This document shows, piece by piece, positions 1,546 to 49,883 of a stretch of 64,000 nucleotides of DNA. How positions within the stretch are numbered: position 1 is the stretch's first letter; each line of letters opens with the position of its first letter. The stretch is taken from NCBI GenBank assembly GCA_951799405.1, contig OX637356.1, positions 13,229,229-13,293,228 on the forward strand, read 5' to 3'. Below the pieces are notes generated by a model that was not told the DNA's origin, searched no databases, and saw only the letters and a program-made list of their open reading frames with translations. The position numbers and the translations under genes are program-made. This stretch comes from Agapetus fuscipes. Lineage: Eukaryota > Arthropoda > Insecta > Trichoptera > Glossosomatidae.

Positions 1546-2865
1546 AAAATAATGCATTAGGTGAGCTAAGGTTTTGAAATTAGCTAACTTTAATTTTTCT
1601 TTTAGAATTTATTTACTTTATTTTTCTAAATCGACAATTTCAAAAGAAGTTTGCAAAAAATATTATATTTTCAGTCAACCAACGTATCTTTTTATAATGT
1701 TATCGACTGCAGATCATTTACCTACATACAGGTCCAATAACTTTTAAAATAATTTCCCTCAGCGTAGACACTTTTTTTCTGTAGGCATCTACGGTTGTTC
1801 ACTTGCGTCTACGCTTCCCTTGCAGCCTATCCTTGTTAGCTGCCAACACTCGCCCGGGCTCGTTAGGCAGACTGCTCCCCATAGGGCCATCGTAACCGTA
1901 GCACATAGAGCCTCTACGATATCGCTGTAGAACTGCCCTCGTAGCACTACCCCAAGTATAAAACTTTGCATTTAAACTCAACGATGCAGTACATTTTTTT
2001 TTAAAAAAAAATTCAAATTGCCTCTGTATGAAGTTTTTTCAGTTTTCATACATTGTTGGTATAACGTTATTTTTGAGTTTGAACGTGATATTGTATTACT
2101 CGATGTGCAGTAAGGTGGATCGCTGTATGTATGGAAAAAATTAAAAATCATTTTTTCGTAATTGCGTTATGCAGAACAGTTGCTCTATGGGGTGAGTATC
2201 TGATATAAAAAAAAATCCTATCAAAATATTAATTTATTATACTGCCCCAAGTCATCAGAAAAATTACAAAAATACATAAAACTACTCATTTTTACCCCTG
2301 TGTTTAAGAATCAAGTATTAGATAAAATCAAACGAAATATAATTTTGTTTCTTTAAAATGAATGAAATAGTTATCATTACGTGTTTGGTATCTTGTAATT
2401 TGAGAGGGATGGGTGGAGGCACCCCCTAACTTTGTTACTCCGCGCAGACGCGTGTCACCAATTCGGTGCTCTCAGAGATGTAACTATAGTTGTACGCTAC
2501 TCATATTTTTTGCACATACAAATTTACGAGAGATCTTAAGTGTATTTTTAATATAATCAGCGTGTTAATGCAACAGATTGGCTTCATTTAATTATGCAAA
2601 ACATCTTAAAGTACCGATAACTGAAAAATATTCTGATTGATCAAAGAACCAAAAGATAAATGATCATAAGGAGTGTTGATTTGAAAACTGCTGCGTGAAA
2701 TTAAAAAAAAGCTGAACCGGAAACAGAAATATTAACCATACAAAGAAAAAGCTACAAGTTCATTGCCAAATCTGTCTGACCTATCAACTGATGTCTCTCA
2801 ACAACCAGTCTCAACAGTAATAGTAAAACTAGCACTTCAGAGACCGCTACCTCAAATTTCGTATT
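1546..2865. other. no gene recognised; AT-rich, one GC-rich block
   Basis: I see no coding frame or known repeat that I can support. Bases about 1765-1990 are notably more GC-rich, with several short inverted CTACG/CGTAG motifs, and may be a decayed element. Confidence 0.4.
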
Positions 2866-3263
2866 CATATTGGCGGTTGATCTGTGATGTTGGCGGCTAG
2901 GGTTTGTTAAAGTGAATTTGGTTTTATGATTTAGTTTTTTATGTCCATGTATATATTGTTATTTTTATTCTTTGATTTTAAAAAATGTAATTTGTCATGT
3001 ATGTTCCTTGACTTATAGGTTGTTATGCGGCTGACCACCCATAATATAAAAATTGGTTCACTTTGCCAATGTCACCCCTGTTTCAGGGAAGGACGGCAAG
3101 AGTTGCAAGGCTTATGTTCATTTGAGATTGGGTTTTTATATTGTAGGTCCACATGCGGCATGTGTTAGCGCGAAATTATACATATCTGCTTGTGGGAATG
3201 CATTTAGTATAAATCTTAAATGATATATATCTTTGCAGCTTAGATTAGATTAGATTAGATATT
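2866..3263 (+). repeat. R1 repeat, long copy with 5' extension
   Basis: The core begins at CCTTGACTTATAGG (about 3009) and ends in a TTAGATTAGATTAGAT tail. Upstream, GATGTTGGCGGCT is shared with the R1 copy near 58750, and TGTAATTTGTCATGTATG with the one near 13270. R1 is therefore the 3' part of a longer element of which most copies are 5'-truncated. Confidence 0.75.
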
Positions 3264-3275
3264 AATTTAAAAATA

Positions 3276-4650
3276 TTGACCTTGGCATACTGGAAAAACC
3301 TGTGGATAAATTTGGCATTTCCAATAAGGCTGAAGCTGCTCTTGTTTTGGCAACAAAGCGTTGGTATTACTTCAGACAAATATTCATCCAAAGTTTTCGA
3401 TCAAAATAAAATTAGAAGAGCCCGTAAAAAGCAAATAACTAAGTTCAGCGGTGTGACCATTGATTCTGATTACTAAGATTTGGGTTTATACTTTGATGGA
3501 CGTAAAAATAAAACCTTTAATGTAGTGGATCATAAGAGAAATATAATTATAGAAGAGCGTATTAGTTTACTTAAGGACGCAAGGTCACAGTACATTGGTC
3601 ATATTTCTTTAAGCACTGGAAAAGCAGCAATAATAAAAAGAAAAATTATGGATATTTTAATCAGTAAAGATATCAATGTCATCCTTTTTGCTGTAATCGG
3701 ACGTGATAGAACTATTGTTAATACAGATGGAATTGGTAAATTCATTCCAAAAAACTTAAAATATCTAGTAAAACTGCTACAGTGGTGTATTTGTCAACTC
3801 CATGCCAACGAACTGCCGCGACAATTATTTGAATATATTGATGGTTGTACAATTGGACTAAGAAGTTACTCTGGACCCATAGAAAAGGTATTAAAAAGTT
3901 GTGAAGAGCTTCCAATAGTCTCGATTCTAACTATCCAATGTGATCTACCTATTGAACGGAGAATAACTATAAAGTCTGGATATTGTTCTCAAAGCTTATT
4001 AAAAAGAAACCCTGGAAAACTAGTGCATTCAAGATGGCTCACAGAACACTACGGCTTTATGTTTTTTTTTTTAACCATCTGACAAGCTGTTAATATTATC
4101 AATTATATAATGAAAGTAGATGCTCTTATGTGGTTATGCACTTACACAAGACAATCTAAATGTCGCGATATTTGACAGATAATTTAAAGCAGATACTACA
4201 TCCTGTTATACAGAGAAATAGATATTTCAATCATATAAAAAACATCTTACTTGCTTTGCCTTTTTATGAGTTCTAGCCTTGTGAAGAGTATTGAAACGCG
4301 ACAGGAAATAATTTTGAGAATTCGAACTACGATCGGCCAAAACTTGATTTTGATGCAAACAATTATAAAAATCCTTATAAACTGGCACGAAAATAATGTG
4401 ACCAAGTAACAGGGGTGTTACAAAATTTATGAACGGTGAATTAACATCACGTTGTTAAGAAAATCCACCGCTTGTTGACGAACTAATCTCAAGCCATTTC
4501 CATTTTCCTTTCTACACGTTAGCCACTGAAAGATTAGTAAAAATTGTAACAAAAACTTCAGCTACTGTTTGCGGTCTTATCAGAAGAGATGAATTCATTA
4601 AAAGAAACCTGGAATCGCGACAAATAATGCCTTTTTTCAATTTAAAGAAA
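3276..4650 (+). pseudogene. decayed member of an arthropod multicopy (probably transposon-linked) protein family
   Basis: One frame runs 3276-4082, broken by a single in-frame TAA at 3474-3476, then decays. Recognisable stretches are GLYFDGRKNKT, SQYIGHISLSTG, the segment CQLHANELPRQLFEYIDG, RSYSGPIEKVL, and NPGKLVHSRWLT. Past 4082, related pieces continue in shifted frames: IMKVDALMW near 4110, LHPVIQRNRYFNHIKNILL near 4195, and VTKTSATVCG with ESRQIMPFF near 4540-4630. I associate these motifs, from memory, with an uncharacterised family present in many copies in arthropod genomes. I do not know its function and name no enzyme. The 5' side abuts an R1 tail. Stops and frameshifts make this copy non-functional. 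Confidence 0.5.
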
Positions 4651-5366
4651 GATTACCAATTCTCTTAAAATCACTATTTTCTAGACTTCTGTTGATTGCC
4701 ATTTTTTCATTTTTTTTTGCCATAAAAGGGTCTTTTTTTTATCATTTATAGAAAATCATGCTTTGTGCTTAAATTTGAACTTCATTTTACTACAATTATT
4801 TTTTTCTTAATAAACAAAAAAAAATGTTAAGTATATAGCAGTTTTTATGATTTTTATTAACTTTTCGAGGCTTTGGGGCAGTATAAGATCAAATATTTCG
4901 ACCTTATGGTTGTACAATTTATTGTTTGTATGGATATAGAGCAGCTTTTGGCCAAACGCAAAATCGAAATTCCCAAAAAAACGATTTCGATCCACCTTAA
5001 TGTGCAGTACGCTCAAGTACCTACAGCCCAATATGCTACGCTGCTACGATTGCTAATGGTGGGTGATGTGAAGGATTTTTTAACAATCCATTTCAAACCA
5101 TTTTTTAGTCTGGCAAGAAAAAAATACCACATAATATTAGATAACTCATGTGTGTAGGTACTAAGTATTAAATTATTTATTTGTTTTCAATGATCACTTC
5201 AAATTTGAAATTTCATAAGAGATGTCATAATTGAGATTTTTTATCCATTTTTATACAAAAAAAAAACAGTCAACTAAATTTTCAGTGGTAATGCACAAAC
5301 CATAAAAAAATACAAAAAAAACAGTGTTCGCATTACATATAATCTATTCAAGAAGTCCCAAACTGT
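4651..5366. other. no gene recognised
   Basis: AT-rich sequence with homopolymer runs. The 94-residue frame at 4873-5157 shows no motif and I do not support it as a gene. Confidence 0.4.
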
Positions 5367-5462
5367 AAAAAATAGCTTACTTTGCCAATGACGCCCCTGT
5401 GTAGGTATACATGCAGTATGTCTAAGCGCGAATTATACATGTCTGTTTTTGGCATGCTTATG
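5367..5462 (+). repeat. R1 repeat, internally deleted copy
   Basis: Contains the R1 head (AGCTTACTTTGCCAATG) joined by deletion to the R1 3' half (TAAGCGCGAATTATACATGTC). An opposite-strand R1 copy follows immediately. Confidence 0.65.
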
Positions 5463-5470
5463 ACTTTTAG

Positions 5471-5731
5471 TCTAATCTTTAATTTAGATTGTAAAGATGT
5501 ACCTATTTTATTTGAGATTCAAATTATATGCATTCTCACTAGCAAAGACGTATAAGTTCGCGCTTAAACATGCCACATGTGGACTTACAATATAAAACCC
5601 AATCTCAAATGAACATAATTCTCATAATAATAGCCCTGTAATTCTTGCCGAACTTCCCTGAAACGGGGGTGACCTTGGCCAAGAGAACCATTTTTTTACA
5701 GTATGAGTGGTCAGTCTCATACCAACCTATA
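5471..5731 (-). repeat. R1 repeat, near full length
   Basis: Reads on the minus strand from the AAGGCAAGGAA end back to an ATCTAAATTAAAGATTAG tail. It shows the usual blocks: ACCCAATCTCAAATGAACAT, the CCTGAAAC block, and ACCATTTTTTTACAGTATG. Confidence 0.8.
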
Positions 5732-6799
5732 AGGCAAGGAAGACTGAGTTAAAATGTAATTTTAATTTATCATAGAAACTTAAATAAAAGTTTATATTAT
5801 TTACATATCGCTTAATGCATGTAAGGTTTTGAAGAAATTTACACAACTGGTTATACGAGTACACAAATTTCATGACAAAACTAGAAGCTGAATTTTTCAA
5901 ATTAACAGAATCTCACATTTCACATTTCAAATACAAATAAGTCACTATTGGTAAACTAGAATCAAAGTTGTCTCGAGTTAAATCATGTCCAGATAGAACG
6001 GGCAATTTCACCCTTCAGTGGCTTAAATAATAAATCAGATGAGTAAAACTGCCACTCACAATTACCCCGTAACTGCCGCCTGGAGCGGAGCAAACGTCTA
6101 AGCAACTAATATGTCAACAGTCAAGTAATCCAGAGCAACCCTTTCCAAATAAAAGGACCAGCCCTTCAATTCCCTTTACTGAGCGGTTGTTAATTTGAGG
6201 TCCGTAACATGAGTGCTAAGGGTTACTCTTAATATACTTGTTCGTAAAAGCAAATAATAAAATAAACAGTAAGCAAAAAGTATTAAACAGAGTACGTTAT
6301 TAGCTGGAGTACCTCTGGTCGAGTTATTTTAAGAGAGATTAATACGCACTTAACATTCAATTGCCGTTCCATTACTGCTTGACTTCTCGGAAACATTGTA
6401 CACCAAATAAAAAATAAGAAATAATCAAGAAATTTGGGCTTTGACCATTACCACCGTTAAATAAATATAATTTTCCACCAGAATAGTTATTAAAAATTTT
6501 ATAAAATACAATTCATTATAAATAAAGTGTCAATGAACTGTACAATTAAAAAAAAAATCATCTTTATGTTTTAAAAAAATTAAAACAATGCAAAAATTAC
6601 TAGTATGACGAGATGGCTCGTACCTACTTGGCATCCTTGGTGCAGACAAACCGTCCTACAATATGAGTTATCTTAAAATATCTAGTATGAAAACTTTTTT
6701 TTTGAGATATAAAGTCTAATAGTCAACAAATAAACATTATTTCACTTTCACTTGTATTATAAACTATTTCAGTCTTCTAAGATTTTTTAAATCTTGAAA
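5732..6799. other. no gene recognised
   Basis: AT-rich. The more GC-balanced patch at about 6040-6230 has no long frame and matches nothing else in the window. Confidence 0.35.
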
Positions 6800-6800
6800 A

Positions 6801-6818
6801 TGGTGCCGTGACCAGGAT
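6801..6818 (+). other. possible primer binding site of a decayed LTR element
   Basis: TGGTGCCGTGACCAGGAT follows AT-rich DNA with AATAAACATT, resembling the start of an internal region after an LTR. The TGG start fits the tRNA CCA rule, and the string recalls Bel/Pao-type elements. No matching LTR or coding frame was found nearby. Confidence 0.25.
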
Positions 6819-7733
6819 TGTTTAAGAAGCGTTGCTTTTACTACTTTCACCTCTCCACGTGTCCCACTATCCTCTCCAGATCTGCCGTTATTGTCTCAGG
6901 GATCGTCCACTCGCTCCCAAGATTTGTGGATATTGGAGACTGTAGTGTCTTGCTGTATATTTTTAGCATTAACCCCTGATATATTGGATACTTTTGGTTG
7001 TTTCAGGATCTCTCGGCTCAAGAGTTAGTTCCTTATTTGGTACTACGCTATAGGTATTGTTACAACTGAACGAATGATGTGTGCGATAAACAATCACTTA
7101 TTTACTTTTTTGTAACAAACCTTTTGAATTATGTAAGTATTTATTGTCAGCGCATATCAACTATTATGCCTTTACTTTGTTTACGAATGTGAATTGAGTA
7201 CTTCGGGATTATTATTACAACTTTTTTCTACATAACTTGTTCACGTTTGAATGCTTTGATTTTTCTATTGTATATAATAAGTTAAATTAATATTTTTCTA
7301 TACGGTGTTCAGTGCCATTGCAGATTACAAAACAAGACAGTATATTATTTGAGGTTCAGCTGTTTCTTCGTGATGATGATGATGACTTGATATAACGCCG
7401 TTTCGTGAAAATTGTCACTCCAAGGGTGCTTTCTGTGCTATCGCGGCGAAGTAATTAAGATTTCATTTAAAAATTTATTTTCAGAATGCATTCTCGTGAA
7501 TCTATAAAGTTAAATCTACATAAAAACAAATTAATTAACGTAATTCAGACACGAGGCTTTGAGATTATTAGAAAAAAAACAATTCACAACAGTCTTAAAA
7601 GTTAATTAACTAACCACCAATTCTCAATAAAAACCACAAAAAAAAACAAATTATCTTCTTTACGGTCAGCAAAACCAAACATTTGGGATTCCTACAGTTA
7701 CACCTTAGATTGTTTTACAACACTCAATAACGC

Positions 7734-7741
7734 TATAAATA
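7734..7741 (+). promoter_or_regulatory. candidate TATA box
   Basis: TATAAATA lies 66 bases upstream of the ATG of the candidate exon at 7807, leaving room for a start site near 7760-7770. In such AT-rich DNA it may be chance. Confidence 0.25.
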
Positions 7742-7806
7742 AAAACACTGCTCCACTCTAACCTTCCAACCCATCGTGCTTGTTCACCGCTCCGTGTGAC
7801 ATTAAA

Positions 7807-7912
7807 ATGGGTTCACATTGTTCAAAATCACGAGTCAAGGTCCCATCCCATCTCCGCAACCCTCGGAAGCATTTGAATGTGTGCCCTCAGCCATTGTTAC
7901 GATTATTTGGAC
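7807..7912 (+). CDS. candidate first coding exon of a host gene (weak)
   Basis: An ATG in a fair context (AAAATGG) opens 35 codons in a patch clearly more GC-rich than its surroundings. The frame stays open up to a perfect donor-like GTAAGT at 7913, and a stop codon lies just past it in the presumed intron. The predicted N-terminus, MGSHCSKS, fits an N-myristoylation pattern (Gly2, Ser6). A TATA-like box lies upstream. I recognise no family. It cannot splice directly to the candidate terminal exon at 29007 because the phases differ. Confidence 0.25.
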
Positions 7913-7918
7913 GTAAGT

Positions 7919-8741
7919 AATGGCTTCCTTTGTCACTCGAGAAGTGTTGTCCTGAAAACGCGTTTCCCATTTACCCCGAAAAAATAAAAATCGTATTTAT
8001 TTACACTTGAAACGAGGATTTTTTTTATTTCGTGAAACATTGCGGCAAAAGAAAGGTCTCATTGTTTTTTTTTCATTCTTTTTTTCGGGTTTATTTTTCA
8101 TGAGATAAATCTCGAGTCTAAATAATTCTATACAACTTTAGACAATGAAAGTAAACAAACATAGGCAGTTATAGAGTATACTTTTTTTTTGTGTACATGA
8201 ATGCATTATATATAAAATATTTTTACAAAACCGCAACAAAACAATTAATATAAAATGTAAAGTCTTCTTTCTTAAACACAGTTTTCTGATATTGATTTGC
8301 ATTAGAAATTGATCCTATTTTCAGAAAACGTATTAGTAATCTTTGGGATATATTGTTTGATCTTGATCAACGATACACGTATGAAAGAAAATTTCGTTGA
8401 ATATGAAAACACTTTTCAATCTCTGAGGAGTAAGAAAACTCTCACTTAACATACCAAGCTACCTGTCTAGAACTTTCACATGTGAAAATAAATAGGTACC
8501 ACAAACCCAAATTTCAAAGATAATAACTGCAAAAATCCGCAATAAGACAATATCCTTCAACATACCTACTAACACGACCATAAAAAATATAAATTTTCAA
8601 TTTTTATTATTTCAAAAAACAAATATTCAATTTGTTCTTTTTAAAATTGAAAGTTGTCCTTTTAATTACGGTGTAATAACATTGAAAGCGCTCGAGGAAA
8701 AAAAGTTGTGTTTTATTCTTACATTATTAACTTATTACAAT
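7919..8741. other. no gene recognised
   Basis: AT-rich DNA with poly-T and poly-A runs. Nothing supportable was seen. Confidence 0.4.
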
Positions 8742-24077: not shown

Positions 24078-24925
24078 ACTGGTGTATGGAAGTAAAGCAT
24101 GGACTAAGAGTGACAGCAAAATGAGAAATTTATGTACAGTAGAAATGAAACACTTGAGAAGTATAAGAGAGAAAAAAGAGAGAATGAATGGGTAAAAGAT
24201 AAATGTAAGTTAAAATAGGAAAATAAAGTGAAGGTACAAAATGATGTGATGAGATGGTTTGGATATGTAGAAAGAATGGATGATGAAAGACTTGCAAAGT
24301 GCATATATAGGGGATGTGAAAAGTAAAAGAGGAAAAGGAAGACCGAGAAAAGCGTGGCTAAATCAGATTGGTGAAATTGTATAAGAATATGATATACAAA
24401 ACGGATATAAAAGAAAGGAATGTATTTGTCAACGACGAAACCATGTTAAAAGCATCGGTTATCATCAGATCACCGAAGCTAAGCAACATTGGGCGCGGAT
24501 GCTACTTGGGTGGGTGACCGCTCAGGTACACCGCGTGTTGTTGGCATTTCTTGGACCGGTCCGTAGTCCAGTGGCAACACTTCGTACTCGTAAATGGAAG
24601 GTTATGAAAAATTCATAAATCTTTACCAAAGACCGATCACTGAAAGGTCCATCCAACCTTACAACAACTGGGTCTTGCTTGAGAATTGGCGCTTTCTACA
24701 GCAACTACCAAGCTCGCAGAGGGCTCCTGAGGTGTGATTCACACAAAAACAGCGCTCACCAAATAAATCATCCTAATATTATTATTATTAGTAAATGTCG
24801 AAGGCTATGGATGAATTGAAAAGGGTATGCAAGAACAGGAAAGAAATTGAGGCAAATCTGCAGAAGCTCTGGCCACCCCTTCAATAATGACGACAGAGAT
24901 ACAATAATAGTAACAGTTTTGACAC
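24078..24925 (+). pseudogene. RTE-like LINE ORF2 C-terminus, split by a 5S-SINE
   Basis: In broken frames it encodes LVYGSKAWTKSDSKMRN, then VEMKHLRSI, then MRWFGYVERMDDERLAKCIY. This is the conserved end of RTE-type LINE proteins (LYG-x-EAW and RWFGHVERM motifs). It is interrupted at 24428-24790 by a 5S-headed SINE and resumes at about 24791 with MDELKRVCKNRKEIEANLQK. It ends near 24915 with ACGACAGAGATACAAT, matching the family terminus. Stops make it non-functional. Confidence 0.65.
24428..24790 (+). mobile_element. 5S rRNA-headed SINE (5S plus SINE-B)
   Basis: Bases 24428-24545 match eukaryotic 5S rRNA end to end: GTCAACGACG at the start, GATCACCGAAGCTAAGCAAC (5S A-box region), GGTGGGTGACCGCTCAGG (C box) and CCGCGTGTTGTTGGC at the end. 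A tRNA-like SINE-B unit follows (GGTCCGTAGTCCAGTGGCAA), then a body and an (ATT)n tail. It is inserted within an RTE-like LINE copy. Confidence 0.85.
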
Positions 24926-26043: not shown

Positions 26044-26480
26044 GTCAACAACGTTACCATGTTGAAAGCACCGGTTCCCATAGATCACCGAAGTTAAGCA
26101 ACATTGGGCGCGGATAGTACTTGGATGGGTTACCGCTCAGGTACACCGCGTGTCGTTGGCATCTTGGACCGGTCCGTAGTCCAGTGGCAACACTTCGGTC
26201 TCGTAAATGGAAGGTTGTGGATTCGGATCTCGGCGGAGCACAAAAATATACCATTTATATTTCGAATGTGCTCTTCGCTGAGTTGAAAAATTTATAAGCC
26301 TTTACCAAAGACCGGTCACTGAAAGGTCCATCCAACCTTACAACAACTGGGTCTTGCATGAGAATTGGCGCTTTCTACAGCGACGACCTAGCTCGCAGAG
26401 GGCTCTTAAGGTGTGATACACTCAAAAACAGCGCTCACCAAATAAATCATCCTAATATTATATTATTATTATTATTATAT
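26044..26480 (+). mobile_element. 5S rRNA-headed SINE, full-length copy
   Basis: 5S-like domain at 26044-26160 (GATCACCGAAGTTAAGCAAC, GATGGGTTACCGCTCAGG, CCGCGTGTCGTTGGC). The tRNA-like unit follows (GACCGGTCCGTAGTCCAGTG with GGATTCGGATCTCGG), then the body and an (ATT)n tail to 26480. 5S internal promoter elements are retained. The TSD is unclear. Confidence 0.85.
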
Positions 26481-42403: not shown

Positions 42404-42480
42404 ATGTTTTGAGTAGGCTCTTGGTTCTTGAAGTTTCTGAATGTGAACTGTCTTTGTGTGAATTTGAATAAGTATGATAT

Positions 42481-43166
42481 TGTTATGTAAATATAAATAT
42501 TGAAATAAGTATGGGTAGTTATAGTTATAAGAATCCTCAAAAGTATTGGTAGGTAAGATCGATAATTATGTATAAGTGTAGAATTCTCTAGGCTAAGTAG
42601 GTATTTGTTATAATTATAGGAATACTGTATTGCATTGGTAGGTAGGATTTTGGTTGTGTCTAGGTAGTACGTGAAACATCGAGAAGTAATAATTACTCTG
42701 GAACCGTCTGGCGACTTTAGTTCTGGATCATACTGCTCTATAATCTATAATCTATAATCTAAGTTGCAAGGATATATTCATTTAAAGCTCTCAGATGTAT
42801 GCCCACAAATCAACAAGTGTAGTTCGCGCTTACAAATGCTGAATGTGTACTTACAAATAAAATCCAAACCTCAAATGAACATAAGCCCCAAAACTTTTGC
42901 CGACCTTCCCTGAAACAGGGGTGACATTGGCAAAGTGAACCATTGGCAAGCTCTGAAGAGTATAAAGGTGCGAATGGCCTGCAGAGCGGGCCAGTATCAT
43001 AGCGACTAACAAACACATCGAAGCCATCTGATCAGTGAACCGAAACCAATGGAATAATCGAGAAAGTAGTGTGAAAATAAATTTTGTAACTGTGTAAAAT
43101 AAATAACTATTGAAGAAGACCTGTGTATTTTTAATTTGAAGACAATTGAACCCTAATTTCGTAACA
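42481..43166 (+). repeat. 5' LTR, interrupted by R1
   Basis: TGTTATGTAAATATAAATAT at the start and TTTCGTAACA at the end. Without the insertion it is 471 bases, the same as the 3' LTR. It includes a TATA-like AGTATAAAGG at about 42958 and AATAAA motifs near 43075-43110. Confidence 0.95.
42740..42949 (-). repeat. R1 repeat inserted in the 5' LTR, perfect 5-bp TSD
   Basis: GCTCT occurs at 42735-42739 and 42950-42954 and only once in the 3' LTR. The copy is 5'-truncated, starting on its own strand with TTGCCAATGGTTCAC, and has three (TAGATTA) tail units. It inserted after the Gypsy element did. Confidence 0.95.
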
Positions 43167-43168
43167 AT

Positions 43169-43186
43169 TGGCGTCAGGTGCGGAAT
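43169..43186 (+). other. primer binding site
   Basis: TGGCGTCAGGTGCGGAAT starts two bases after the 5' LTR. The TGG matches the CCA end of a tRNA. The tRNA species is not determined. Confidence 0.7.
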
Positions 43187-43811
43187 TGTCAAGAAAAATT
43201 AAGATCTTCTTTCTAAAAATAAATGAAATAAATTAAATAGTGTTAAAATGAACTTTAGTCAAATTGAACTTTGTGTGAACTGACTTTTGTGAAAACAAGT
43301 GTTTAAATAAATTTTTGTTAAAAGAAAAGACGCAAAAAGCAAGTTCAAAAAAAAATTCTGGAACATCCTAAAACATAATGACTATTTTACCGCATTGAGA
43401 AAGTCATCAAATTGGACCATAGTTTTTTTTATTATTGTGTGTGATTAAAAAATAAAATAAATAAATAAAAATCTTGAAAAATATTACAAAAGAACGTTCC
43501 AGATTCATCGAGAAAAAGTTTTTGAATAACTGCCCTTCGTTTACAAGTGTGTGAATGTACATTAAGTACCTACCTGTGTGTTTGAAAGACTTGAGACGAA
43601 ATAAATAATTATGTACTATCAGACATTATTATGTAAAAAAATATTGGTGAATTAAAAATAAATATTAAAAGACAGTACCTACCAATCAGTGTAATCAGAT
43701 AAATTATTATTTTGCTAAAGTACGTATTCAAAACAGCTCTATATATAAAACTCGTATTAAATAAATTTGAAAATATTTTTTTTGTTTTGAAGTAAATTTA
43801 AAAAAAAAAAA

Positions 43812-45191
43812 ATGGCAACTAAAGTGAACGTCAAGGACCTCAAAGTCACTGAGCTTAAAAATGAGCTTCTGGAGAGGGACCTGGAGACCTCAGGAGGAAA
43901 GGCAGCCTTACAAGCACGCCTCATAGAGGCCTTGGAACGGTCAGGTGAAGACCCGGTATACTTTGTCATGGCATCTGGAGGAGACCGCGCCCTTGAGGAG
44001 CTGAACTTCAGCATCACAAAATCCATAAAGGAGGAGCTCACGGGAAACTTCACTGCTATGGAGGAGAAGATGGCTGACAACGCCAAGACCCTGGAGGAGA
44101 AGATGGCTGACAACGCCAAGACCCTGAAGGAGGACCTGGCAACCATGGAGGAGAAGATGGCTGACAACACCAAGACCCTGAAGGAGGACCTGGCAACCAT
44201 GGAGGAGAAGATGACCAGCAACCTGACCGGGCTAGAGGAGAAGATGACTGGGCTGGAGGAGAAGATGACCAGCAACCTGACCGGGCTGGAGAAGAAAGTG
44301 GCAGAAAGCTCGCGAGCAATGTCAGAGATTGAGGCCCGTGTGGCAAGCCTGGAGGACCGTCTGCGTGCCGAGCTGGCTGACAAGTGCCAGATGGAGTCCA
44401 CCAGAATCTCCCCCAAAGGCGGCCTTCACGACGAGACCGACCAGGGATGCTCAACTCCAACCAGGGTCACAAGAGGGGATGATGACCCTTCCCTAGCCAA
44501 GCACAACCTCCCAACCTTCGACGGGAAGACGTCGTGGGAGGAATACTTGTCCCTCTTTGAGACGGCTGCCATGATGGGAGCCTGGAGCCAGCAGAAGAAG
44601 GCTTCGGTTCTCAGCCTGTCGCTCCGAGGAGACGCTCTCAGGGTTCTGCAGGCCATACCCTTGGACAACCGTGGTGACTTTGGGCAGCTGAAGCAGCGCT
44701 TGGATATGCGCTATGGCCACAAGTGCCTGGAGCAGCTGTACAAGTCACAGCTGAACACAAGGGTGCAGAAGCCCAACGAGAGCCTCCAGGAGTTTGAGAT
44801 GGACATCGCCCGCCTGGTACGAGACGCTTACCCGACAGCCTCCGACGACATCTGTGAGAGCTTGGCAGTGGACAGGTTCCTGAACGGGTTGCGGGAATGG
44901 GAGACGCAGCAAGCCGTGAAACTGGCCCACCCCAAGGCGTTGAACGAGGCGCTAAGCCAAGCTCTAGAGTTTGAGGCTGTCAAACAGTCCATCAGGGGCC
45001 ACGCCAGGGTTCGTGCAGTCGAGGCAGAGGAGGTCAAGCTACCAACAACCGAGGAGTTAATTGAAAAAGTGCTGGAACGTCTGAGACCTCGAAGACGAGA
45101 CCCACGCTGCTGGAACTGCGGACAGCTGGGCCACCTTAGCACCAAGTGTCCAAAGCCTCAGAAACCCAGAAAACAGGCTGCGGAAAACTAG
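43812..45191 (+). CDS. gag: Gag of the Gypsy element, with N-terminal SAP-like domain
   Basis: 459 residues with a good ATG context (AAAAATGG). Residues about 8-42 (KDLKVTELKNELLERDLETS, then GGKAALQARLIEAL) match the SAP motif, a helix-extended-helix DNA-binding fold. Residues 83-165 are a near-tandem repeat of EEKMADNAKTL, EEKMTSNLTGL and KEDLATM units, a predicted coiled coil whose DNA is also repetitive (44059-44295). Residues 234-393 (LPTFDGKTSWEEYLSLFE onward) are the retrotransposon capsid-type Gag domain. Residues 433-446 are a CCHC zinc knuckle (C433, C436, H441, C446), which binds genomic RNA. The frame overlaps pol by 52 bases. It builds the virus-like particle; the SAP domain may tether Gag or particles to chromatin (inference). 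Confidence 0.92.
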   Translation: MATKVNVKDLKVTELKNELLERDLETSGGKAALQARLIEALERSGEDPVYFVMASGGDRALEELNFSITKSIKEELTGNFTAMEEKMADNAKTLEEKMADNAKTLKEDLATMEEKMADNTKTLKEDLATMEEKMTSNLTGLEEKMTGLEEKMTSNLTGLEKKVAESSRAMSEIEARVASLEDRLRAELADKCQMESTRISPKGGLHDETDQGCSTPTRVTRGDDDPSLAKHNLPTFDGKTSWEEYLSLFETAAMMGAWSQQKKASVLSLSLRGDALRVLQAIPLDNRGDFGQLKQRLDMRYGHKCLEQLYKSQLNTRVQKPNESLQEFEMDIARLVRDAYPTASDDICESLAVDRFLNGLREWETQQAVKLAHPKALNEALSQALEFEAVKQSIRGHARVRAVEAEEVKLPTTEELIEKVLERLRPRRRDPRCWNCGQLGHLSTKCPKPQKPRKQAAEN

Positions 45192-48100
45192 AAAGGGTTA
45201 ATGGGAAGGGGCAACCGTTGACCCGCGCTGGAGAGGCCCTGAAATCTGCTGCTACTGTCGCAACCGTGAGAGGAAAAGCCAGCAGCATTTTTATCAATGG
45301 CATAATAGATGGAGTAACTCGTGAACTACTGGTGGACACGGGAGCAACCAGGACAATTCTGAGACGCGACATAGTGGCACGAGGCAAACAGATTGCACCA
45401 ACAAAATGGTCTCTGCACACCGCCACGGGAGAGTCAGCACAGGTGTATGGGGAGACGATTGCCACCTTCCAAATTGGCAGCACCACTTTTGATCATCGGA
45501 CATTGGTGGCCAACATTGAAGAAGACGTTATATTGGGAATGGACATACTGGACAGATTTGGGTGCAGCTTGAATTTAAAGAAAGGTGCCATTAAAATTGA
45601 AAGTGAAGAAGTCATCCTGCAAAGACGGACAGAACTGGCTGCACGTGTTATCCTAGCCAAGAATACCGAAGTGAAGGGGCGATCCGAGATGATAGTGAGT
45701 GCCCGCCTGGATTCCAGTAGTACAAATGACCAAATCTGTATGATAGAACCGGAGAACATGGACAATGTTAACAAAGGAGTCATGGTGGCAAGAACAGTGA
45801 TTCGCGCGCAAGAGACCATTCCTGTCAAGATCATGAATGTGAACAGCTACCCAGTTAAAATGAATGAAGGTTTTGTTTTGGGCAGATGTGAGAGGATAAC
45901 TTCCATTGTGCAACAGATGACAAACATGACATGCGAGGGAAGAAAACTATCGACACAATTGGAAACCCTGGTCCACGACGCTTCCCAAGGTCTAACCGAG
46001 GAAAACAGACGTAGAGTGAGGAGTTTGATCTGCCGCTACCAGAACATTTTCGAGGACTCTAATGGCCGTCTGGGAAGAACCAAGGTAGTGCGACATAGCA
46101 TAGACACCGGAGAAGCAAGACCAATCAAACAGGCTCCAAGAAGACTACCCTTTGCAAAGCGGGAAGAAGCTGACAAGATCATCAAAGACATGAGCAAGGA
46201 TGGCATCATAGAACCATCAAGTAGCCCTTGGACATCCCCGGTTGTACTGGTGAAAAAGAAGGATGGTACCACGAGATTTTGTGTGGACTATAGACTGCTC
46301 AACGATGTTACGAAAAAGGATAGTTACCCCCTGCCAAGGATTGACGACACCTTGGATACATTGGCAGGATGCACCATTTTTTCCACATTGGACCTGAAAA
46401 GTGGCTACTGGCAAGTTGAATTGGAAGCCAAAGATAAGGAGAAAACTGCATTCTCGACTGGATCTGGACTTTGGCAGTTCACCGTGATGCCATTTGGCTT
46501 ATGCAATGCCCCCGCCACGTTTGAAAGGCTGATGGAGAATGTGCTGCGAGGACTGTCATGGGAAACCTGCCTTGTATATTTGGATGACATAATCATCTTA
46601 GGAAAGGACTTCAACCATCAGTTGAGAAATCTGGAGCAAGTTTTCGGGCGACTACAAGACGCTGGACTGAAGCTCAACCCGAAAAAGTGTAACCTGTTCA
46701 AGAAACAAGTAAATTACTTGGGACACATAGTTTCTCAACGTGGAGTTGAGGTTGACCCTGCTAAAATCAAGGCAGTAAGAGACTGGCCCGTGCTGAAGGA
46801 CAAACATGAAACTAGGAGTTTCCTGGGGCTGTGCACTTATTACAGGAGGTTTGTGCCAAGATTTGCGGACATTGCAAAACCGCTCACCAAGCTTACGGAA
46901 GAAAACACTCGCTTCCACTGGAGTGATTCCTGCGCACAAGCATTTGAAGAGCTTAAGGGAAGATTAACGAGTGTCCCAATCTTGAACTACCCACGAAAAG
47001 ATGGAAAATTCATCCTGGATACCGACGCTAGTAATGTGGGGATAGGAGGTGTCCTTTCCCAAATACAGGATGGGCATGAGACTGTTCTGGGTTACTTCAG
47101 TAAAGTGCTTTCCAAGCCAGAACGAAATTATTGCGTGACCAGACGAGAGCTTCTTGCCGTGATAAAATCAGTGGAACACTTCCGCAAATACTTGTACGGG
47201 AGAAAATTCACACTACGGACTGATCATGCTGCACTGGTTTGGCTTCTGAAATTCAAAAACCCAGAAGGGCAAGTGGCTAGATGGATTGAAAGGCTCCAGG
47301 AGTATGATTATGACTCCGAACATAGACCTGGCACGCTTCATCGAAATGCGGATGCATTATCCAGACGACCATGCGCCAGTGACTGCAAACATTGCAGCAG
47401 GATGGAGGACAAGGTAGCAATTGTCCAAAGGACGACCACTGAAGATGAGGACTGGCAAGATGAAAAATTGGCCCAAGACCAACTGAATGATCCGGACTTG
47501 AAGTATGTGATGGAATGGGCGCGAGAAGGAAAAAGGCCAACCTGGGAAAAACTCGCCCCCTTATCACCAACTGTCAAGGCTTATTGGGCTCAATGGGGAT
47601 CCATAGTGATAGAAGGAGGGCTTCTAAAACGAAAGATCGAGAAGGAAGATGGCACACTTAGAAGGAAGCAAACCCTCGTTCCGAGGAGCCGAGTACCGGA
47701 AATCCTTGGACTGCTTCATGGAGGAACTTCTGGAGGACATCTAGGCGTTAAGAAAACGCTGGAGAAAGTGAAAGAGCGATTTTACTGGATCAACTGCAGC
47801 GAGGACGTCAAAGATTGGTGCCGAAAATGTGTAACCTGTGCATCGGCCAATGGACCGCAAAGGAAAAAGCGAGCACCAATGCGTCAGTACAATGTTGGCA
47901 GCCCCTTTGAAAGAATTGCCATCGACATAGCTGGCCCATTCCCTACAACTGAGAAGGGTAACAAGTACATCATGGTGGTGATGGATTACTTCAGCAAGTG
48001 GGTGGAAGCTTATTCAATCCCTAACCAAGAGGCCGTAACCGTGACTGAAGTTCTAGTTACCGAATTTATCAGCAGGTTTGGCGTACCCCTGGAATTACAT

Positions 48101-49408
48101 TCTGATCAGGGAAGGAACTTTGAAGCTGCTATCTTCCAGCAAATGTGTGAGCGGCTAGGGATCTACAAGACCAGGACCACTGCGCTACATCCACAGTCTG
48201 ATGGAATGGTGGAAAGGATGAACCGTACCGTGGGGAGGTACTTAGCCAAAGTAGTGTCCAGCCATCAGCGGGACTGGGACCGACATCTACCTTTGTTCTT
48301 ATTGGCTTACCGGTCGGCTGTTCAGGAAACGACGAAGAAGACTCCCAGCAGCATACTGTTTGGGCGAGAAATGCGACTTCCTTGTGATCTCAAATTTGGC
48401 TGCAAACCAGGTGAAGACCTAGCCGGAGAAGACTATGTGACAGACCTTCGCAGGAGGCTGGATGACATCCATGATCAGGTCCGCATGAACATCGGGGAAG
48501 CCAGCGATCAAATGAAGGAGCGCTATGACACCAGAGCTGACAGCATGGGGTACAAAGCTGGTGACTGGGTGTGGCTTTTTGACCCCAAGAGGCGCCAAGG
48601 ATACTGTCCGAAACTTCAGCGTTCCTGGGACGGGCCGTACGAGATCTTGGAGCGCATCAACGATGTGGTCTACCGCATAAAAAAGAGACCAAACGGAAAA
48701 CCAAGGATCGTGCACTACAATCGCCTCTCACCATACCTAGGCGATAATGATGACCAACCAGCCCAAAAAGTACGACAGTGCGTCGCATCCGAAAGATCAC
48801 CAGCCTTTGAGACGTTTTGGGAGAACGCGAAGGCAGGGCAGAAGTTTCGCCATGGAGTGACCACAGAAGTCCACAAGGACTTATTTGAGGTCACTGGGGA
48901 CCACACACTGGCATGCAGTGTACCGGAAGATCTAGATATGTCTAGAGGAATTGCACGGGTCTTCCGATACAAATTCGGAGAACCGCAACCCTCGAGCAGC
49001 CCGCAAGGAAGAGCTCTGAGACTACCGAAGGGGCGTCAACAAGCATACTGCCTGGTTGTCCCGGATTCCAGCAACCTGGAAGATGACTACAAGGCATTGT
49101 GGGACGGCCTTGTTGAGCTGCGTGACTACATGCTGGAGGATCAGCAGGCGCGTCTGGCAATACCAAAGATGGGTGGCGGCCGCGCCAATCGAGATTGGCG
49201 GATAATCCGGAGTATGATTGAAGCAGTGTTCTCGGGAGTCGGCATCAGCGTCATGGTGTGCTGCGAGCAAGCGCAGCCGAGAGCCAGTGAGGAGAAATCC
49301 GTGGACTGCCACTTCTTCCTGACCACAGGGTGTCGACGTGGATCAGCATGCCCCTACCTACACAGAGTCAAGACTGTTCCGGGACGAAACAGTCTAGGTG
49401 GGGGGTAG
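45146..49408 (+). CDS. pol: Pol with C-terminal macro domain and CCCH zinc finger
   Basis: The open frame begins after a stop at 45137-45139 and lies -1 to gag. It has no initiator ATG near its start, so it is presumably made as Gag-Pol by frameshifting. Numbering residue 1 at 45146: protease DTGA at 64-67, with GMDIL at 131-135. Reverse transcriptase about 340-560, with Asp416 (STLDLKSGYW) and YLDD at 478-481. RNase H Asp627, Glu668, Asp693, Asp736. Integrase zinc site H858, H865, C895, C898, with catalytic Asp927, Asp987 and Glu1023 (D,D35E). GPY at 1163-1165. All look intact. Beyond about 1200 comes an unusual extension: residues about 1236-1374 match a TARG1/OARD1-like macro domain, and 1388-1406 form a CCCH finger (C1388, C1396, C1402, H1406; CX7CX5CX3H). 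The stop overlaps the purine-rich tract. Confidence 0.95.
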   Translation: MSKASETQKTGCGKLERVNGKGQPLTRAGEALKSAATVATVRGKASSIFINGIIDGVTRELLVDTGATRTILRRDIVARGKQIAPTKWSLHTATGESAQVYGETIATFQIGSTTFDHRTLVANIEEDVILGMDILDRFGCSLNLKKGAIKIESEEVILQRRTELAARVILAKNTEVKGRSEMIVSARLDSSSTNDQICMIEPENMDNVNKGVMVARTVIRAQETIPVKIMNVNSYPVKMNEGFVLGRCERITSIVQQMTNMTCEGRKLSTQLETLVHDASQGLTEENRRRVRSLICRYQNIFEDSNGRLGRTKVVRHSIDTGEARPIKQAPRRLPFAKREEADKIIKDMSKDGIIEPSSSPWTSPVVLVKKKDGTTRFCVDYRLLNDVTKKDSYPLPRIDDTLDTLAGCTIFSTLDLKSGYWQVELEAKDKEKTAFSTGSGLWQFTVMPFGLCNAPATFERLMENVLRGLSWETCLVYLDDIIILGKDFNHQLRNLEQVFGRLQDAGLKLNPKKCNLFKKQVNYLGHIVSQRGVEVDPAKIKAVRDWPVLKDKHETRSFLGLCTYYRRFVPRFADIAKPLTKLTEENTRFHWSDSCAQAFEELKGRLTSVPILNYPRKDGKFILDTDASNVGIGGVLSQIQDGHETVLGYFSKVLSKPERNYCVTRRELLAVIKSVEHFRKYLYGRKFTLRTDHAALVWLLKFKNPEGQVARWIERLQEYDYDSEHRPGTLHRNADALSRRPCASDCKHCSRMEDKVAIVQRTTTEDEDWQDEKLAQDQLNDPDLKYVMEWAREGKRPTWEKLAPLSPTVKAYWAQWGSIVIEGGLLKRKIEKEDGTLRRKQTLVPRSRVPEILGLLHGGTSGGHLGVKKTLEKVKERFYWINCSEDVKDWCRKCVTCASANGPQRKKRAPMRQYNVGSPFERIAIDIAGPFPTTEKGNKYIMVVMDYFSKWVEAYSIPNQEAVTVTEVLVTEFISRFGVPLELHSDQGRNFEAAIFQQMCERLGIYKTRTTALHPQSDGMVERMNRTVGRYLAKVVSSHQRDWDRHLPLFLLAYRSAVQETTKKTPSSILFGREMRLPCDLKFGCKPGEDLAGEDYVTDLRRRLDDIHDQVRMNIGEASDQMKERYDTRADSMGYKAGDWVWLFDPKRRQGYCPKLQRSWDGPYEILERINDVVYRIKKRPNGKPRIVHYNRLSPYLGDNDDQPAQKVRQCVASERSPAFETFWENAKAGQKFRHGVTTEVHKDLFEVTGDHTLACSVPEDLDMSRGIARVFRYKFGEPQPSSSPQGRALRLPKGRQQAYCLVVPDSSNLEDDYKALWDGLVELRDYMLEDQQARLAIPKMGGGRANRDWRIIRSMIEAVFSGVGISVMVCCEQAQPRASEEKSVDCHFFLTTGCRRGSACPYLHRVKTVPGRNSLGGG
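45182..45188 (+). other. candidate -1 ribosomal frameshift site
   Basis: GGAAAAC lies directly before the gag stop (TAG 45189-45191), within the 45140-45191 overlap. A -1 slip there would place AAC on AAA and enter pol. It is not a perfect X XXY YYZ heptamer, so another site in the overlap is possible. Confidence 0.4.
48851..49267 (+). other. macro domain segment of Pol (TARG1/OARD1-like)
   Basis: Residues about 1236-1374. VHKDLFEVTGDHTLACSV, then EDLDMSRGIARVFRYKFG, matches the GDLF...H-x-(V/I)SEDxxMGxGIAxxFKxKFG pattern of TARG1-type macro domains. A central VVPDSSN strand and a YKALWDGLVEL helix follow. LAIPKMGGGRANRDWRII, then SMIEAVFSGVGISVMV, matches the (S)MP-x-IG-x-G...W...I...F...I-x-V ending. 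The family binds ADP-ribose and some members remove it from proteins. By my alignment a Lys (K1295) may match TARG1's catalytic Lys, but the Asp position is Ala (A1347). Confidence 0.75.
49307..49363 (+). other. CCCH zinc finger at Pol C-terminus
   Basis: CHFFLTTGCRRGSACPYLH (residues 1388-1406) gives C-X7-C-X5-C-X3-H, a typical CCCH finger of RNA-binding proteins. It is the last folded unit before the stop. Confidence 0.85.
49397..49408 (+). other. polypurine tract overlapping the pol stop
   Basis: GGTGGGGGGTAG directly precedes the 3' LTR and includes the TAG stop at 49406-49408. It would prime plus-strand synthesis. Confidence 0.75.
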
Positions 49409-49879
49409 TGTTATGTAAATATAAATATTGAAATAAGTATGGGTAGTTATAGTTATAAGAATCCTCAAAAGTATTGGTAGGTAAGATCGATAATTATGTA
49501 TAAGTGTAGAATTCTCTAGGCTAAGTAGGTATTTGTTATAATTATAGGAATACTGTATTGCATTGGTAGGTAGGATTTTGGTTGTGTCTAGGTAGTACGT
49601 GAAACATCGAGAAGTAATAATTACTCTGGAACCGTCTGGCGACTTTAGTTCTGGATCATACTGCTCTGAAGAGTATAAAGGTGCGAATGGCCTGCAGAGC
49701 GGGCCAGTATCATAGCGACTAACAAACACATCGAAGCCATCTGATCAGTGAACCGAAACCAATGGAATAATCGAGAAAGTAGTGTGAAAATAAATTTTGT
49801 AACTGTGTAAAATAAATAACTATTGAAGAAGACCTGTGTATTTTTAATTTGAAGACAATTGAACCCTAATTTCGTAACA
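49409..49879 (+). repeat. 3' LTR, uninterrupted
   Basis: 471 bases, TG...CA, by eye identical to the 5' LTR outside the R1 insertion. Confidence 0.95.
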
Positions 49880-49883
49880 ATAT

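Follow-up and report, generated by a model that had tools for sequence, protein, structure and literature searches.

Why should the polyprotein of a retrotransposon continue, behind its integrase, into a domain that resembles a cellular enzyme of ADP-ribose metabolism, and what could such a domain do there? The question is raised by a Ty3/Gypsy element present as a complete copy (positions 42481-49879) in a 64 000-nucleotide stretch of contig OX637356.1 of the trichopteran Agapetus fuscipes, hereafter called the window. As had been predicted from the letters of the window alone, the Pol frame of this element runs uninterrupted from 45146 to 49408, and about 220 residues continue in frame after the end of the last integrase match at amino acid (aa) 1196. 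By sequence similarity and predicted fold this tail carries a macro domain of the TARG1/OARD1 type, the catalytic pair of which is replaced; a CCCH-type zinc finger, unmentioned in the original prediction, follows at aa 1388-1406. We lean slightly towards the view that the two form a selected accessory module, which would act as a reader or adaptor of ADP-ribose rather than as its eraser.

A TARG1-type macro domain behind the integrase

Residues 1240-1371 of Pol match human TARG1 with an E-value of 2.8e-10 (phmmer), which bears out the central claim of the original prediction, that a macro domain of TARG1/OARD1 type is fused to a Gypsy Pol. The tail was also matched by the NCBIfam DarG model (8.4e-6, at 25.3 bits, the family cut-off of 250 being far higher) and by PHROG 335, labelled phosphatase (1.1e-8). 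On sequence similarity it belongs to the ALC1-like class of macrodomains, that of TARG1 and DarG. A profile made of two rows only, the tail and TARG1, collected 2458 proteins, the best 120 of which are nearly all vertebrate OARD1; for the fold alignment, 34 OARD1 proteins were taken from these 120 best-listed matches and set beside P0001. The tail as predicted from this alignment has a macro fold and superposes on TARG1 over tail residues 40-179, a check that had been proposed at the outset. The macro part, as delimited by the model alignment, extends over Pol residues ∼1235-1374 (48848-49267 in the window), within one codon of the 48851-49267 first suggested. Among viral predicted structures, the best match of the model is Kadipiro virus VP8 (Foldseek 1.9e-11, 25% identity), which ranks above the listed alphavirus macrodomains.

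When the tail alone was compared to public proteins, one relative was found, in another public record, with 98% identity across the whole tail. A search of public proteins for full-length Pol relatives with the same tail brought 395 candidates, none of them at E 0.01; distant Pol relatives may have been missed, since the method requires shared five-letter words. Scans of viral contigs and of genome contigs yielded nothing that could be confirmed.

The catalytic pair of TARG1 is taken here as Lys84 and Asp125 (a review prints Glu125). Its aspartate is aligned with A1347, as originally proposed; the lysine is aligned with P1306, and K1295 (in LPKGRQQ), the candidate put forward earlier, is thereby ruled out. 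The tail thus lacks the Lys84-Asp125 pair of a TARG1-type hydrolase. The same positions are occupied by P or R, then A, in four rows of family A, to which the window element belongs, and in three rows of a related family B (Arg and Ala in B). Judged from these residues, the window domain is probably not a normal hydrolase, in line with the earlier suggestion that it might bind rather than hydrolyse; since both residues of the dyad are replaced, reversal of ADP-ribosylation by the window copy, which had been proposed as well, is unlikely. Of the 49 positions that at least 95% of the 34 OARD1 sequences have in common (OARD1-conserved positions), 24 are retained, parts of the glycine loops included.

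The zinc finger scores 21.5 bits against PF00642 (cut-off 20.5) when the tail is taken in isolation and 17.5 bits, under the cut-off, within the whole Pol. Its motif is present in 63 of 65 family A loci and 12 of 13 family B loci, counts in which some places, having been fetched twice, are included twice. The finger is thus of a nucleic-acid-binding type.

Copies of the window element and selection on the tail

The genome (618 Mb, 148 contigs) was searched with the tail, and 150 of 1412 candidates were scored. The 150 places listed are spread over many contigs; all span 225 residues at 99-100% identity, and 149 are stop-free. Because the whole tail recurs at no fewer than 150 genomic places, with 149 of the 150 listed free of stops, the macro tail is not a product of chance. 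The exact 1422-codon frame occurs at 105 of the listed places, one of which is the row with the stop. At five of the 150, open frames of 1834-1861 codons are found, as if gag and pol shared one frame.

Substitutions were counted in 40 copies, hand-picked from the 150 listed, and in the window copy, which differ on average by 0.5% in pairwise comparisons over integrase and tail. Of the substitutions present in at least three copies, the tail has 6 synonymous and 2 non-synonymous ones (P 0.003-0.013) and the integrase 13 and 5, respectively. The singletons of the tail, 4 synonymous and 8 non-synonymous, are near the neutral expectation (P 0.30 to 0.53), and those of the integrase, 24 and 26, include fewer non-synonymous changes than expected (P 4e-5 to 0.005).

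A second family with the same tail, and a derivative carrying it on Gag

To find relatives, the genome was searched with a public OARD1 protein, 150 of 1007 candidates being scored; three probable host OARD1 exons came first, and several retroelement groups after them. One of these groups, family B, has frames of 1453 codons and is 85% identical to family A over reverse transcriptase (RT) and ribonuclease H (RNase H). It retains both the macro domain and the finger, directly behind the C-terminal domain of the integrase as in A; its tail is about 49% identical to that of A and gives an E-value of about 1e-18 against TARG1. Between the macro domains of A and B the proportions of synonymous (pS) and non-synonymous (pN) differences are 0.72 and 0.33, which gives a ratio of non-synonymous to synonymous rates (dN/dS) of about 0.17, with dS near saturation. 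For the integrase pN is 0.11 and pS saturated; pS is saturated for the finger too. By its codon substitutions, the macro domain of A and B is under constraint.

A derivative of family A goes further. At locus L089 (the same place as L066; G000:C12:4521800-4528400, frame 2183-4510), a single 776-codon frame encodes Gag, a coiled coil, the macro domain and the CCCH finger, with neither RT nor integrase. Its long terminal repeats (LTRs) are 97.9% like those of A and are enclosed by a pair of direct repeats of 522 bases, the two copies of which are 99.8% identical. A single frame also joins Gag knuckle, coil and macro domain at L063, and coil and macro domain at L075 and L079; the coil is present in a fifth locus, L076. 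From L089 and these kindred places it follows that the module is retained without RT or integrase, where it stands on Gag. The SAP domain that opens Gag in the window (43830-43937) is retained in L089 as well (E 6.9e-9).

TARG1-like domains upstream of the integrase

The nine places of family C, among the 150 scored in the OARD1 search, belong to a different Gypsy lineage, 43% identical to A over RT-RNase H. Here a TARG1-like domain (E 1.5e-20) is located between RNase H and the zinc domain of the integrase, and the catalytic Lys and Asp are retained at all seven loci read, so that the idea of an eraser fits family C better than the window copy. Two subfamilies of C give a dN/dS of 0.075 for the macro domain and 0.08 for the integrase, i.e. 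a similar constraint. L090 (G000:C12:10907500-10917000; 3438-7196 and 7238-8575), the one locus of family C that was read over its full length, has a frame for an F-type Env after Pol (Baculo_F, E 2e-43); no LTR pair was found around it in the 9.5 kb read.

In family D, the integrase of which is 53% like that of C, the place between RNase H and integrase is likewise taken by a homologue of the macro domain, but a degenerate one. With the D spacer as query, ten D places were recovered (L092, L093 and eight further ones) along with each of the nine C places, the E-values for C being 1.6e-8 to 2.9e-5. The aligned D rows have lost the glycine loop and the catalytic Asp; the other catalytic position is occupied by a Lys. 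Spacers of other such elements may likewise conceal macro domains that have escaped recognition.

Origin of the domains

Trees were built after removal of near-identical rows (5 of 33 in one, 7 of 37 in the other). A with B, and C (or C with D), each form a tight group on a long branch, and the host exons fall among OARD1 proteins. In the best tree, rooted on three phage proteins that themselves group weakly (52/22), A/B go with OARD1 and C/D lie outside, with a support of 88/94, under the star level. By the approximately unbiased topology test (p-AU), a grouping of A, B, C and D together was not rejected (0.54); the topology in which C and D join the host gene gave 0.085, and that in which C, D, OARD1 and host are united 0.45. 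On these trees, capture from a gene of this host, as envisaged in the original prediction, is no more than a possibility: the branches are long and do not fix the place of the element domain relative to host OARD1, other OARD1 and phage proteins. The domain sits at two places in Pol, which suggests that it was captured twice. Phage proteins annotated as hypothetical or by orf number, or unannotated (L094, L095 and L096, from uncultured phage LR756508 and the Lactobacillus phages LpeD and LP65), resemble TARG1 and share 33-40% identity with the macro domain of family C.

The element in the window

The features of the element are collected in Table 1. Protease, RT, RNase H and integrase follow one another in this order within one Pol, and the element is bounded by paired LTRs and a short duplication, as is the rule for Metaviridae. 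An env gene after pol, the mark of Errantivirus, is absent; the Pol stop codon directly abuts the 3′ LTR and therefore leaves no space for one. In Gag, Pfam matches were obtained for the SAP domain (E 3.9e-8) and the CCHC zinc knuckle (1.7e-5). The element is young, recently active and very abundant. The 215-base insert in its left LTR (42735-42949) is bounded by a GCTCT duplication; among the rows listed, 37 further pieces across the window match it, and it is thus an abundant short repeat. Two matches to 5S rRNA are also found in the window, on the + strand at 24428-24546 and 26044-26161.

Table 1. Features of the Ty3/Gypsy element, in window coordinates
Feature	Position	Strand	Remarks
Target-site duplication, left copy	42477..42480		ATAT
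5′ LTR	42481..43166	+	interrupted by a later insertion of 215 bases; identical to the 3′ LTR over 470/470 aligned bases
gag	43812..45191	+	SAP domain, repeated EEKMADN-type stretch, CCHC zinc knuckle
pol	45146..49408	+	1420 aa, -1 frame relative to gag; uninterrupted: protease, RT, RNase H, integrase, macro domain, CCCH finger
Integrase part	47678..48733	+	H2C2 zinc domain, core, p58-type C-terminal domain; last Pfam match ends at aa 1196
TARG1/OARD1-type macro domain	48851..49267	+	Pol aa ∼1236-1374; catalytic pair replaced (P1306, A1347)
CCCH-type zinc finger	49307..49363	+	C1388-x7-C-x5-C-x3-H1406, aa 1388-1406
Purine-rich tract	49396..49408	+	precedes the 3′ LTR, Pol stop codon at its end; function presumed
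3′ LTR	49409..49879	+	471 bases, TG...CA
Target-site duplication, right copy	49880..49883		ATAT

What the module may do

We take the tail to be a functional accessory module, fixed downstream of the integrase in a Ty3/Gypsy lineage without env and most likely a reader or adaptor. An adaptor is the simplest interpretation of a macro domain that is under constraint, lacks the TARG1 dyad, is joined to a CCCH finger and is carried by Gag-Pol or by Gag. The macro domain, on Gag-Pol or on mature integrase in the particle, would dock onto an ADP-ribosylated protein, RNA or DNA end of host or element, and the CCCH finger would hold RNA or DNA of the element, so that ADP-ribose (or a related ligand) would be tied to the nucleic acid of the element, in the particle or at the integrase. 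Binding of ADP-ribose, binding of nucleic acid by the finger and a role in docking are what we infer to be most likely. For chikungunya virus in mosquitoes, it has been argued in PMC12632316 that binding, not hydrolysis, is selected, and loss of the catalytic residues of the macrodomain in alphaviruses, insect-specific ones included, is discussed in PMC10221186.

Several observations weigh against this reading. H32C, S35P, I120M, C122G and L124R are changes at conserved positions which we take to lie in or near the pocket, and because of them the domain may no longer bind a ligand either. Confidence in the model depends on the 34 OARD1 rows: with a two-row alignment the model is poor, its predicted local distance difference test score (pLDDT) being 42.4, and no fold match reaches E 0.001, the top three being TARG1, TARG1 and DarG. 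Pfam Macro (PF01661), proposed at first as a check, does not match the window tail even at E 10; a probable host OARD1 exon (L049) barely reaches this model, with 22.4 against 22 bits. As to selection, the synonymous divergence of A from B (dS) approaches saturation, and the sample of copies was ranked by tail similarity and so favours conserved tails and a low non-synonymous count. The tail substitutions present in at least three copies are all within the macro part and none in the finger, which has 1 synonymous singleton and 4 non-synonymous ones; the fingers of A and B are only 41% identical over 29 codons, with pS 0.85 and pN 0.40. Finally, macrodomain mutants of chikungunya virus had effects in both directions in Aedes mosquitoes, according to the same paper, PMC12632316.

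Other explanations have to be considered. The tail might be an extension of the integrase that aims insertion at ADP-ribosylated chromatin, a macro counterpart of the chromodomain, which in chromoviruses occupies the same place; ALC1 and macroH2A do read chromatin, and in A and B the module is directly behind the C-terminal domain of the integrase. Since the module stands behind Gag in the derivative that lacks RT and integrase, and since the family C domain precedes the integrase, we consider such a tether unlikely, if not without merit. Slightly less probable still is an active eraser, which would remove ADP-ribose from proteins of the particle or from nucleic-acid ends despite the lost dyad and so oppose PARP-type enzymes (poly(ADP-ribose) polymerases) of the host. 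PMC7050489 reports that SCO6735, an ALC1-like hydrolase, acts without either residue of the dyad and that DarG retains the lysine only; family C, moreover, has both residues wherever it was read. Against it are P1306 and A1347 in the window and the P or R, then A, of the four A and three B rows.

It is also conceivable that an old captured fragment is kept merely as a fold, a ligand-free spacer or passenger, given that 25 of the 49 OARD1-conserved positions are changed and that family D illustrates how such a domain decays with the frame still open. That the macro domain is constrained from A to B, that the CCCH finger is retained with it and that the module also occurs behind Gag makes this improbable. 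An assembly chimera or a fortuitous resemblance, in favour of which nothing was found, is rejected as next to impossible in view of the at least 150 genomic tails on many contigs, the 98% identical tail in another public record and the match to TARG1.

Relation to known systems and significance

TARG1/OARD1 (C6orf130) is a free-standing host enzyme of the ALC1-like class, whereas the window domain, with K84 and D125 replaced, is fused behind an integrase and joined to a CCCH finger. In lentiviruses a dUTPase, an unrelated enzyme, is found between RNase H and integrase, the Pol slot of the family C macro domain. Viral macrodomains (alphaviruses, coronaviruses and others) likewise lie within a replicative polyprotein, and alphavirus nsP3 combines a macro domain with a zinc-binding domain (PMC7468284). 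Endogenous retroviruses of fish with macro-domain frames are credited in PMC4977317 to Basta et al. 2009; these also join a retroelement and a macro domain, but as an additional open reading frame, whereas here the elements are Ty3/Gypsy and the domain is inside Pol, at two positions. Orchid Ty3/Gypsy elements with an AlkB N6-methyladenosine (m6A) demethylase (PMC9289625) are a similar case of a Gypsy lineage in which a domain of host RNA-modification type became fixed; they are plant elements with an additional open reading frame, an active demethylase and another chemistry. Our literature search, which covered part of the matching papers, found no report of a Ty3/Gypsy element with a macro domain, the fish retroviruses being the only macro-domain retroelements found, and term searches of a survey of viral NAD/ADP-ribose systems (PMC9503650) gave no match to 'metavir', 'gypsy' or 'transpos'. 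Macro-domain retroelements are already known; what is unusual here is the breadth: the domain occurs at two places in Pol and in two catalytic states, and in one derivative the module is on Gag.

ADP-ribosylation as an antiviral mark has been studied mainly in mammals. Insects are without most of the PARPs found in vertebrates, according to PMC10221186. It is possible, if somewhat short of an even chance, that ADP-ribose signalling is a standing battleground between host and Gypsy elements: TARG1-type domains would have entered Pol at two places, behind the integrase in A and B and between RNase H and integrase in C and D (C with an Env frame), where one lineage kept it as an eraser and the other converted it to a reader, and a Gag-macro-CCCH derivative that lacks RT and integrase would have spread with the module on its capsid protein. 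Pol accepts a domain of cellular signalling at two places, and the derivative retains the module without the polymerase. TARG1-type domains with the dyad intact and with the dyad lost, constrained in one genome, would be a natural experiment on the effect of the mark on particles, RNA and integration of retroelements, and would address whether reading or erasing it counts. Gypsy elements with such domains may exploit the ADP-ribose mark of the cell.
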